Below, in pieces: positions 51,651-54,819 of a stretch of 64,000 nt of DNA. The translations under genes and the position numbers were made by a program. Each line of letters opens with the position of its first letter. Positions within the stretch are counted from its first letter, which is position 1. The notes under the pieces are model-generated. The model was given only the letters and a program-made list of their open reading frames with translations, had not been told where the DNA came from and ran no database searches. Source of the DNA: Candidatus Tenderia electrophaga (GTDB taxonomy: Bacteria; Pseudomonadota; Gammaproteobacteria; Tenderiales; Tenderiaceae); assembly GCA_001447805.1 (NCBI GenBank), contig CP013099.1, forward strand, positions 1,860,001-1,924,000, given 5' to 3'.

Positions 51651-51726
<76 letters not shown>

Positions 51727-51733
51727 AATCTCG

Positions 51734-51763
51734 AACCTCGGATACACTCCCCGGGGTTTTTTT
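51734..51763 (+). terminator. Rho-independent terminator-like hairpin between tRNA-Gly and tRNA-Cys
   Basis: AACCTCGG (51734-51741) pairs with CCGGGGTT (51751-51758), with one G-U pair and a nine-base loop, followed by seven T. It could lower or stop transcription before tRNA-Cys. A TATACT box at 51781-51786 could be a -10 element for a separate tRNA-Cys promoter, but no good -35 box accompanies it. Confidence 0.5.
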
Positions 51764-51797
51764 GTAGCGAATTAATCCGCTATACTCGATTTCCGAT

Positions 51798-51871
51798 GGC
51801 TGGGTGGCAGAGTGGCTATGCAGCGGCCTGCAAAGCCGTGGACGGCGGTTCGATTCCGCCCTCAGCCTCCA
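51798..51871 (+). tRNA. tRNA-Cys(GCA)
   Basis: A 74-nt cloverleaf with acceptor GGCTGGG, anticodon GCA at 51830-51832, T-loop GTTCGATTC and encoded CCA. Position matches E. coli cysT. Confidence 0.96.
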
Positions 51872-51941
51872 TTGTTCTAGTAGTTGTAACAAGCAAGTCA
51901 CCTATAGCCCGGGTGGCGAAATTGGTAGACGCAAGGGACTT

Positions 51942-52537
51942 AAATATCTGAGCACCCAGGCTGGAAACACCTGGCGTGAATGGAGTCAAATTCGGGGAAA
52001 CCTCAGCGCATCCGGCGGTGGCAATCCCGAGCTAAGTCCTGGTTCTGTTTTTGCTTCGATACGTCGGAGTAAGGGCATGGCAGTTGGGGCAGAGAAGACG
52101 CAGGTTTTCTAATCTATTGTCTTTGTTGTTGCCATTGACATGGTCAAGCTCAAGGGGGATCGGCGTGTTTTAGCCGACGGGTGTTGTTGCAGAGGCTGCA
52201 ACGGTGCTCGAACATGCCCTCTTTTAAAAGTCTTCTTTTCAATGTGCAAGATTGAATATGGACTTTGTTGGACAGGCAATCACCGCTTGATGTTTTACGC
52301 GGCAGAGCTTGTCCTGTGTTCCAGGCTTGGCCTTTGAAATGGGATGTACCTAATTGGAAATGATTGATGGCCGCTTTCCTTAGAACATCATCGTTGCCCC
52401 CATTGCCAAGACCAGGAAAAGTGTAGAGACTTGACGGCTCCCGCCTACGTCATGCTTGCATGATACGGTGAAGAGAAAGTCCAGACCACAAATGCGTTTT
52501 CAATGAAAATGCAGCAGCGAAAGCTGTAGTGGGTAAG
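51942..52537 (+). ncRNA. Group I self-splicing intron in the tRNA-Leu(UAA) anticodon
   Basis: The intron opens AAATATCTGAGC, with the exon end U51941 able to form the required U-G pair with G51950 (exon CUU with guide GAG). Core elements are in order: P (AATTCGGGGAAACC, 51989-52002), Q (GGCAATCCCGAGCTAAG, 52020-52036), R (GTGTAGAGACTTGACGG, 52421-52437) and S (AAGAGAAAGTCC, 52471-52482). P7 forms between GACTT (52428-52432) and AAGTC (52477-52481). The last base is G52537, the omega-G. The core resembles the cyanobacterial tRNA-Leu(UAA) intron. The segment between Q and R is about 380 bases and holds an antisense HNH gene remnant. Confidence 0.92.
52032..52449 (-). pseudogene. Decayed HNH homing endonuclease gene, antisense inside the intron
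   Basis: On the minus strand, frame A (52449 down to a TGA at 52150-52152) encodes an N-terminal part with LGTSHFKGQAWNTGQ, then LKRRLLKEGMFEHRCSLC. Frame B (open from 52169 to TAG at 52032-52034) continues with IPLELDHVNGNNKDNRLEN and LRLLCPNCHALTPTYRSK. Together they give the HNH residues (Asp-His, Asn, His) and both zinc-binding Cys pairs. One extra base in a five-C run (52154-52158) breaks the frame. No start codon is found before the conserved part; an in-frame TGA lies at 52450-52452. The coding region overlaps the Q and R core elements. Confidence 0.85.
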
Positions 52538-52677
52538 AAAATCCCTCGACTGGAGACGGTCGTGCCGGTTCGATTCCGGCCCCGGGCACCATCTCGTGAT
52601 TCCCGCTTTCTTCTTTTCTTGCTCAAGCTCATAGATTAAAGTGAGGTGACGGTTATCGGTCATCAAAAGGATTCTGG

Positions 52678-54819
52678 ATGAATTTCTTAAGGACGCTGTG
52701 TTTCCTCATTGCAATGCTTTCAACGCTGTCGGCGTTGGGTCAGGGCGAAAGCGTCATTCACCACGATCTGGATGTCCGTCTGCACCCCGGCGATCATCGG
52801 CTAGACGTCACTGACCGGATTCGTTTTACGGCAGGTGAGTCGCTGGTGTTTTATCTCAACGCGGCGCTGACCCTGGAAGCGCCGCCGGACAACGTGGAAC
52901 TCGTCTCCCAAGAGACAAACGGCGCGGTACCGGCAAAGGCCTACCGGATTTCAGCGGCGCCGGATCAAACCACCTTGACTCTGCGCTATTCCGGCCTCAT
53001 CGATCACGGTCTGAGCGAGGAGGCCACCGAATACGCCGGGAGTTTTCCTCAGAGCGCCGGGGTGATTGCCGATGAGGGTGTGTTCCTGGCCGGCTCGTCG
53101 CTCTGGTATCCGCATGTGGAAGGCCGTTATGTCTCATTTACCCTGAATACTGTTGTGCCGGCGCGATGGCAAACGGTCAGTCAGGGCGCGCGGCAGCTGG
53201 CGGACGACGGGCGGGTCAGCTGGCGGGAGCGCCATGCGCAGGAAGAGATCTATCTCATCGCCGCGCCGTTTCATGTCTATTCAAGGCCGGCCGGGCGGGT
53301 GCAGGCCATGGCCTTTTTGCGCGCCGAAGATACCGCCCTGGCCGACCGCTATCTCGAGGTGACGGCGCAATATCTGGCAATGTATAACCGCCTGCTGGGC
53401 CCATATCCCTATACGAAGTTCGCGCTGGTGGAGAATTTTTGGGAGACCGGCTACGGCATGCCTTCGTTCACCTTGCTGGGACCGACGGTCATCCGCCTGC
53501 CGTTTATCCTGCACTCGTCCTATCCACACGAGATAGTGCACAACTGGTGGGGCAACAGTGTCTATGTGGATTATCGCCAGGGCAATTGGGCGGAGGGCTT
53601 GACCTCCTATCTGGCCGACCATCTGATTCAGCAGCAGCGCGGGACGGCCCTCATCTTTCGCCGCAATCTGTTGCAGCACTATGCCGACTTCGTCTCCGAG
53701 GGGCGCGATTTTCCCCTGGCCGAGTTCACCGCCCGGCACAGTTCCAGCAGCGAGGCCGTCGGTTACGGCAAGACTCAGATGCTGTTTCACATGTTGCGCC
53801 AGCGCCTGGGCGATGAGGCCTTTGTCCGCGGCCTGCGCCGCTTCTATCGCCAGTATCAGTTCAAGCAGGCCGGCTTCGCTGAGCTGGCCGAGGTGTTTCA
53901 GGGGCTCGACGAGGCCGATTTGAGCGGATTTTTCGAGCAGTGGGTGCAGCGCACCGGGGCGCCCGAGCTACAAGTAAAAACGGTGGAGACGGCCGAGCAG
54001 GACGACGGCTGGCGCCTGACCGTGGTGTTGCAGCAGCAACAGCCGGGGGCCGCCTATCGCATGTCCGTGCCCTTGGCGGTGACGCTGAAGGGCGTCGAGC
54101 AGGCCGTTCAAACCCGCGTCGAGATGAAACAGAAACAGCAGGCCTTTTCCCTAAGGTTGGATGCCAAACCGATGCGGCTGGATGTGGACCCGCAGTTTGA
54201 TCTGTTTCGCCGCCTGAGTCGGGCCGAGATCCCGCCGGCCCTGTCCCAGGCCTTCGGCGCCGAGCGGGTGTTGTTGGTGTTGCCGGCCGCGGCCGCCGCC
54301 GAGACGCGCGCCGCCTATGAAACCCTGGCGGCGTCTTGGCGCCAAGGTCAATCCGCCGAGGTGGACGTGCGTTATGACGACACCTTGATCAGCTTACCGG
54401 ACGACCGCACGGTGTGGTTGTTGGGGGGCGCCAATCGCTTTGCCCCGGTGCTGGTGGCGGCCTTGGCCGAACAGGGTGTGGAACAGCGCGACGGGCAGGT
54501 TGTTCTGAATCAGCGTCATTTTGACCCGGCCCGCGACGCTGTGGTGTTGGCCGCCCGGCGCGCCGGTGACAATGCCCATGCCTTGGTCTGGCTGGCAGCG
54601 GATCGGGCCGCGGCGCTGCCGGGCCTGGCGCGCAAGCTGCCCCATTATCGTAAATACAGCTATCTGGTCTTCAGCGGCGACGAACCCACCAATGAGCTCA
54701 AGGGCCAATGGCCGGTGATCGCCTCGCCCATGACAGTGCGCTTGGCGGAACAGCCGATTCCAATGGCGCAATTGGAGTCGCGCCAGGCCCTGGCACAGTT
54801 GCCGACGGCGTCCCGGTGA
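52678..54819 (+). CDS. M1-family (gluzincin) metallopeptidase, secreted
   Basis: 713 residues with a signal peptide (to about ALG, 22). The zinc site HEIVH starts at residue 284, and the third ligand is probably Glu306 in GNWAEGL, giving a spacing one residue shorter than classical M1 enzymes. ENFWETGYGMPSFTLLG occupies the place of the GAMEN exopeptidase motif. The C-terminal third has no domain I recognise. It is likely a periplasmic or outer-surface peptidase. The start lies 86 bases after the tRNA-Leu 3' exon. Confidence 0.85.
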   Translation: MNFLRTLCFLIAMLSTLSALGQGESVIHHDLDVRLHPGDHRLDVTDRIRFTAGESLVFYLNAALTLEAPPDNVELVSQETNGAVPAKAYRISAAPDQTTLTLRYSGLIDHGLSEEATEYAGSFPQSAGVIADEGVFLAGSSLWYPHVEGRYVSFTLNTVVPARWQTVSQGARQLADDGRVSWRERHAQEEIYLIAAPFHVYSRPAGRVQAMAFLRAEDTALADRYLEVTAQYLAMYNRLLGPYPYTKFALVENFWETGYGMPSFTLLGPTVIRLPFILHSSYPHEIVHNWWGNSVYVDYRQGNWAEGLTSYLADHLIQQQRGTALIFRRNLLQHYADFVSEGRDFPLAEFTARHSSSSEAVGYGKTQMLFHMLRQRLGDEAFVRGLRRFYRQYQFKQAGFAELAEVFQGLDEADLSGFFEQWVQRTGAPELQVKTVETAEQDDGWRLTVVLQQQQPGAAYRMSVPLAVTLKGVEQAVQTRVEMKQKQQAFSLRLDAKPMRLDVDPQFDLFRRLSRAEIPPALSQAFGAERVLLVLPAAAAAETRAAYETLAASWRQGQSAEVDVRYDDTLISLPDDRTVWLLGGANRFAPVLVAALAEQGVEQRDGQVVLNQRHFDPARDAVVLAARRAGDNAHALVWLAADRAAALPGLARKLPHYRKYSYLVFSGDEPTNELKGQWPVIASPMTVRLAEQPIPMAQLESRQALAQLPTASR

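Follow-up and report, generated by a model that had tools for sequence, protein, structure and literature searches.

The tRNA-Leu(UAA) gene of Candidatus Tenderia electrophaga is split by a group I intron that carries, on its opposite strand, a broken gene for an HNH endonuclease. The tRNA gene (51907-52591) is the third of a Gly-Cys-Leu tRNA cluster in the window, by which we mean the whole 64,000-nucleotide stretch of contig CP013099.1 that was analysed. We consider it very likely, based on sequence comparisons, that the HNH gene is the remnant of what would have been an intron-homing endonuclease directed at tRNA-Leu(UAA), which invaded the P6 loop of the intron, belongs to a lineage shared with phages, and has now decayed. 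The arrangement points to a mobile element common to phages and bacterial chromosomes.

The minus strand of the P6 loop encodes the halves of an HNH protein in two frames (Table 1), as the initial annotation had proposed for the region between the core elements Q and R. A profile search, on which that annotation had staked its reading, returned an HNH match: joined with an X, the two halves aligned collinearly with phrog_10822, "HNH endonuclease," over about 120 positions (E=1.5e-33), each half also matched on its own, and the C-terminal half exceeded the cut-off of Pfam HNH_3 (26.9 bits against 24.8). Judged by sequence, the matches are beyond chance. Frame A is open from 52449 to 52153 on the minus strand, with homology confined to about 52401-52183, and frame B runs from 52169 to 52035 before a TAG stop codon at 52034-52032. 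Frame B carries LELDHVNG and KDNRLENLRLLCPNCH, so that the motifs of the catalytic half (LELDHVNG, DNRLEN, and CPNCH) all lie within it. The HNH catalytic residues and Cys pairs (LDHVNG, CPNCH, C..C) are thus present in the window, split over two frames, and are mostly invariant in seven relatives. An AlphaFold model had a pTM of only 0.52. Viral HNH proteins with predicted structures matched it, which supports an HNH fold; a PDB fold search gave no match with E<=0.001, and a sequence search against solved structures gave no match. The window locus is the only HNH copy found in the source genome, and a DNA search of the 11 genomes of its family found no copy beyond it. A scan of 51700-52800 found no sigma-70-type promoter-like site.

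Table 1. Features of the interrupted tRNA-Leu(UAA) gene and its antisense HNH remnant (window coordinates; the labels R element and S element are the ones we take to apply to these segments)
Feature	Position	Strand	Basis or remark
tRNA-Leu(UAA) 5' exon, ending at U34	51907..51941	+	ARAGORN with introns; intron-bearing relatives; intronless tRNA-Leu(UAA) genes
Group I intron, 596 nt, at anticodon positions 34/35, last base G 52537	51942..52537	+	
tRNA-Leu(UAA) 3' exon with CCA	52538..52591	+	Comparison with relatives
Q element (GAGCTAAG)	52029..52036	+	Antisense supplies HNH stop codon TAG
P6 5' arm (TCCTGG)	52037..52042	+	Direct reading; pairs with 52412-52417
P6 3' arm (CCAGGA), edge of deletion removing HNH start	52412..52417	+	Direct reading; alignment with L061
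R element (GTGTAGAGACT), P7 5' strand	52421..52431	+	Conserved across introns compared
S element (AAAGTCC), P7 3' strand	52476..52482	+	Conserved across introns compared
HNH remnant, N-terminal half, frame A	52183..52401	-	phrog_10822 E=6.6e-9 alone; L061 alignment
HNH remnant, catalytic half, frame B	52032..52169	-	phrog_10822 E=3.3e-20; Pfam HNH_3 3.6e-6
Reading-frame change	52161..52170	-	10 nt in window vs 9 nt in L061

The intron itself appears sound. P6 reads as a six-pair stem that has been kept, and the window ribozyme core forms 56 of the 56 consensus pairs in an alignment of 35 intron cores, in which many helices show compensatory changes. Because the RNAalifold consensus is nested, a few of its pairs, those joining the exon to S, are artefacts; P7 and P1 were inspected by eye. 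Left out of the alignment were L085 (long P5 side), L077, L101, L108, L131, L150, and L192 (not parsed), and L187 and L188, which duplicate L061 and L063. Rfam Intron_gpI missed the intron at its gathering score of 50 and matched it weakly in an E-value search (19.7 bits, E 0.02), but the low score counts for little because the model is general and the insert large. Default ARAGORN did not call the tRNA gene; with introns allowed, it was called with the boundary shifted by 2 and was named Phe(aaa). The long-arm tRNAs detected elsewhere in the source genome (Leu CAA, UAG, CAG, and GAG, three Ser, and one Tyr) included no second tRNA-Leu(UAA), and a search of the genome with the exon DNA matched the window locus only. 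The window gene thus appears to be the sole tRNA-Leu(UAA) gene of the genome, in which case its intron must be removed, and we conclude from sequence that it probably still splices.

The HNH reading frame in the window, by comparison, is not intact, having suffered an N-terminal deletion and a change of frame. Relative to L061, one of the closest relatives of the window HNH and our reference for the lesions, about 99 nucleotides are missing at 52411/52412, and with them the start codon and about 30 codons. The absence of a start codon that had been remarked on earlier is due to this deletion. The frame break, attributed at the time to an extra base in a run of C, stands, but its site does not: the five-G/C run at 52154-52158 encodes, in frame B, the I-P-L of the family-conserved PIPLELDH. 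The run is thus in frame, and an extra base there was rejected as the lesion; the frame changes immediately upstream of it. Intact members are predicted to have three N-terminal helices, a part that probably binds DNA, and the deletion removes much of it. With start codon and N-terminal codons lost and the frame changed, the window gene is dead. It is extremely improbable that the frame break is a sequencing or assembly error in a gene that is in fact intact. Such an error might be suspected from one of the lesions, a length difference of one base close to a homopolymer, but it falls outside the homopolymer, the start codon and about 30 residues are missing as well, and four further bacterial copies are likewise broken.

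Decay of the nuclease is best seen against its intact relatives. A scan of GTDB species genomes for Q followed by an antisense CPNCH found 21 further loci with an antisense HNH gene in a tRNA-Leu intron; because the pattern demands CPNCH in antisense, the frequency of sense copies cannot be read from the scan, and P6 position and orientation are partly built into it. By record title, all 21 are proteobacterial, mostly Gammaproteobacteria or a subgroup thereof, with one "Proteobacteria" and one MAG labelled Alphaproteobacteria that may be misbinned. All 21 interrupt a tRNA of the Leu(UAA) type (20 called Leu(taa), one shifted to Phe like that of the window), and 15 have tRNA-Cys just upstream, as does the window, so the loci look chromosomal. 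The antisense frame is intact in 17 of the 21, at the same place and in the same orientation and each exactly 154 amino acids long, and is broken in the other four. The start codons of the intact copies are ATG (14) or GTG (3), and all 17 end in CTTAG, the TAG being the antisense of CTAAG in Q. Thus, of the claimed overlap with Q and R, only the part concerning Q held; overlap with R was rejected, as in all 17 the frame starts on the side of R that faces P6. A Shine-Dalgarno-like motif precedes the start in 7 of the 17 (shuffled mean, 0.57) and is absent from the other 10. Over 136 pairs of intact copies, uncorrected pN/pS averaged 0.28 and reached at most 0.42, and the true ratio should be lower than 0.28 because synonymous sites are near saturation; 55% of the differences fall at codon position 3. 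The intact bacterial copies are under purifying selection.

A survey free of the positional bias of the scan covered 369 genomes of the class with two exact patterns, the second of which gave 0 of 369 when reversed. It found at least 14 tRNA-Leu(UAA) introns (three recovered by the first pattern only), plus at least two in tRNA-Arg(CCU) and one, L190, whose host gene is unclear. Among the 14, L051 was taken as Leu by sequence despite an ARAGORN call of Ser, and the window was called Phe. The antisense HNH gene is intact in three (G136, G104, and G188, encoding the proteins of L061, L063, and L065), a remnant in the window, and without any HNH match in ten. Gammaproteobacterial tRNA-Leu introns of 295 to 358 nucleotides at L189, L193, L200, L048, and L051 are HNH-free with an expanded P6, which may be what is left of older inserts. 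We also note that the tRNA-Arg(CCU) genes at L198 and L199 (G166 and G276), from the same class, have related introns of 228 nucleotides. Intronless tRNA-Leu(UAA) genes occur at the matching place in three genomes of the same genus (G009, G005, and G004) and three of the same family (G002, G003, and G010); the gene was not recovered in the other four of the 11 family genomes. An HNH gene encoded within the intron, intact versions elsewhere, and intronless alleles in close relatives fit what a homing cycle predicts and support the reading of decay. The earlier placement of the window in the last phase of that cycle is upheld as far as decay goes, while past homing is a step that we infer.

The same arrangement is found in viral sequences. 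The scan pattern also matched seven viral contigs, and in each an intron resembling that of tRNA-Leu has an antisense HNH frame in its P6. Six of the seven interrupted tRNAs were called by ARAGORN, including one as Leu(UAG), and a Shine-Dalgarno-like motif precedes the start in five of the seven (shuffled mean, 0.22). Some IMG/VR contigs are possibly misassigned; the records LR756511 and Agrobacterium phage Atu_ph07 are those of phages. The tRNA called Leu(UAG), at L084:2976-3777 (locus reversed), has the same intron and antisense HNH gene and possibly reflects a change of target isoacceptor. Antisense HNH genes are not uncommon among the tRNA-Leu introns of Gammaproteobacteria and phages.

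Relatives outside introns also keep to tRNA genes. A search with the seven-protein alignment was followed through the best 80 of 496 viral relatives, which represent 66 distinct loci. A tRNA lies within 200 bp in 62 of these 66 loci, against 15% for random positions, and a tRNA-Leu(UAA) lies within 200 bp or contains the HNH gene in 52 of the 66, against 0 of 7732. The random positions were drawn within the same loci, since an unrelated HNH family intended as context control gave one locus. Among the best 80 of 496, Leu(UAA) is the nearest tRNA at 49 loci, and three layouts dominate there: a freestanding HNH gene on the same strand with the tRNA 48 to 76 bp upstream (28 loci), an HNH gene of opposite strand located 0 to 29 bp from the 3' end of the tRNA (8 loci), and an antisense gene within the intron (7 loci). 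In two sets of more distant HNH genes, 55 of 69 and 59 of 70 loci have some tRNA within 200 bp, and the counts for Leu(UAA) are 23 of 69 and 19 of 70; these wider sets weaken exclusivity for Leu(UAA) and extend the tRNA link to the wider family. We conclude that the whole HNH family is tied to tRNA genes and that the branch of the window is tied most strongly to Leu(UAA). Alternatively, the genes may persist next to tRNA-Leu(UAA) because it is a safe site, with no cutting involved.

Other viral loci display further combinations of intron and nuclease. At L089, which belongs to the record of a 595-kb phage genome, the HNH gene lies in sense orientation within the intron, and L104 has an HNH gene just outside a tRNA-Leu whose 202-nucleotide intron is ORF-less. 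In the 485-kb phage record of L092 (3001-3538), a freestanding relative directly adjoins an intronless tRNA-Leu(UAA) of opposite strand, where a block of five Leu tRNA genes has its edge. The tRNA-Leu(UAA) introns at L333:2860-3691 and L163:2918-3927 carry a sense HNH gene on the 5' side of the core, outside P6, and the frame in L163 extends to 276 amino acids. Viral tRNA-Lys(CUU) genes at L201:2942-3984, L202, and L206 contain introns of about 950 to 980 nucleotides with a sense HNH gene of the same wider family. The isolate jumbo phage Atu_ph07 (L463:1254-1615) has a tRNA-Leu(UAA) with a 278-nucleotide group I intron; the tRNA is unannotated, and a small hypothetical protein overlaps the locus. 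Finally, a tRNA call spans the R-S core in 50 of 70 distinct viral loci (from 80, L345-L424; 20 are without a tRNA call), comprising 21 Leu(UAA), 12 Arg(UCU), and others called Phe, Thr, Ser, Lys, Ala, Asn, and His, calls whose isotypes are possibly shifted. These introns are mostly about 200 nucleotides and ORF-less, and group I introns look common in phage tRNA genes.

In a tree of 91 HNH proteins, a single clade (94/89) unites the window with the 17 bacterial copies. It falls within a starred clade of 36 rows, alongside viral copies both intronic and freestanding, and this nesting of the bacterial clade among viral copies has moderate support at several forks. Excluded from the tree were L071 and L072 (broken), L068 and L075 (without an ORF), L103 and L139 (partial or set aside), 18 viral near-duplicates, and four duplicates of the L082-L088 contigs. 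The viral intronic antisense state requires nine changes on this tree, with freestanding classes assigned by hand, so moves between freestanding and intronic positions seem to have been repeated, with moderate support. The tree of intron cores is poorly resolved, and joint inheritance of core and HNH gene cannot be read from it. Perhaps the HNH gene was a freestanding, tRNA-associated mobile gene that entered P6 by chance and at no time moved the intron, which spread by ordinary recombination or descent. Freestanding relatives beside intronless tRNA-Leu(UAA) are indeed common in viral contigs (the 28 of 49 above, among the best 80 of 496), and the ten HNH-free introns of the 14 surveyed indicate that the intron persists alone. 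We nonetheless regard chance entry as unlikely, if deserving of serious thought, as the 17 intact copies are alike in loop, orientation, and length and are under purifying selection, and repeated intronic placement in the tree suggests that the intronic position brings an advantage.

Purifying selection across distant bacteria might also be expected if the HNH protein were a splicing helper (maturase) or served another host role rather than homing. We find this very unlikely: the protein is encoded antisense, introns persist without it, the window core is intact with no working HNH, and freestanding relatives adjoin tRNA genes that have no intron to splice.

The evidence is thus best accommodated by an HNH gene that would have invaded, on the opposite strand, the P6 loop of the tRNA-Leu(UAA) group I intron. 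The intact enzyme is predicted to have an N-terminal helical part and a C-terminal HNH domain. Its target would be the highly conserved tRNA-Leu(UAA) gene in its intronless form; the enzyme would cut or nick this, and repair would copy intron and HNH gene into the new site. The intron interrupts the target and would thereby make the intron-bearing allele immune. Antisense placement keeps the HNH reading frame outside the tRNA transcript, and the ribozyme lends the gene parts of itself, the antisense of Q serving as stop codon and the antisense of the P6 3' arm as the region before the start. In the source genome, the enzyme has decayed, and the intron would have been retained because the tRNA needs the intron spliced out. 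The lineage is one that phages share, with relatives in or beside tRNA-Leu(UAA). We infer the cutting by HNH, the homing or transfer, and the role of phage as vector. A broader proposal, which we hold to be evenly poised, is that an HNH homing lineage aimed at tRNA-Leu(UAA) circulates between phage tRNA arrays and bacterial chromosomes, switching repeatedly between a freestanding position next to the intronless gene and an antisense position in P6 of its group I intron. Phages would have brought it, together with the intron, into Gammaproteobacteria, and its decay there would leave behind essential, ORF-poor introns like that of the window. Ribozyme elements would then double as the HNH stop codon and, in part, as its translation start region.

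Viral as well as bacterial sequences contain tRNA-Leu introns whose nuclease is intact and conserved, and intronless, intact, decaying, and HNH-free stages are all available, so that the homing cycle and the step from freestanding to intron-encoded gene are directly testable on one small gene. The target is a tRNA anticodon arm that is nearly identical in all bacteria. The locus also matters for annotation, as default ARAGORN misses the tRNA gene.

The literature search, with most subscription papers outside its scope, returned no description of an antisense HNH gene in a tRNA-Leu intron. The review of Hausner et al. 2014 (PMC3984707) states that every phage group I intron known by then interrupts a protein-coding gene, although phage tRNA genes are numerous, and reports little evidence for intron movement between bacterial species; a 2025 huge-phage preprint describes many phage group I introns, and the word "tRNA" is absent from its main text. 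Beggiatoa BOGUAY and Thiomargarita (Beggiatoaceae) have tRNA-Leu-TAA genes interrupted by group I introns and so resemble the window as Gammaproteobacteria, but the available part of that report mentions no HNH gene (PMC4853749). Members of phrog_10822 lie in phage tRNA arrays and match both window halves collinearly, yet most were observed freestanding, whereas the clade of the window is intronic and antisense. A tRNA-Leu(UAA) intron has reportedly been described in a deep-subsurface gammaproteobacterium (Vepritskiy 2002). The window intron shares its gene, its U34/A35 position, its class, and its core elements, with core pairing computed, with the tRNA-Leu introns of cyanobacteria. Those introns, to our knowledge, usually have no reading frames, whereas gammaproteobacterial and phage versions can carry an antisense HNH gene in P6. 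Antisense homing genes exist in group I introns of eukaryotic nuclear rDNA, likewise on the strand opposite to the ribozyme but in another domain of life, another gene, and another nuclease lineage. I-Ssp6803I, from the cyanobacterial tRNA-fMet intron, is another endonuclease that a tRNA group I intron encodes and that targets the anticodon region of the tRNA gene, but it has a PD-(D/E)XK fold and belongs to tRNA-fMet, whereas the window nuclease is an HNH protein, antisense, in tRNA-Leu(UAA).
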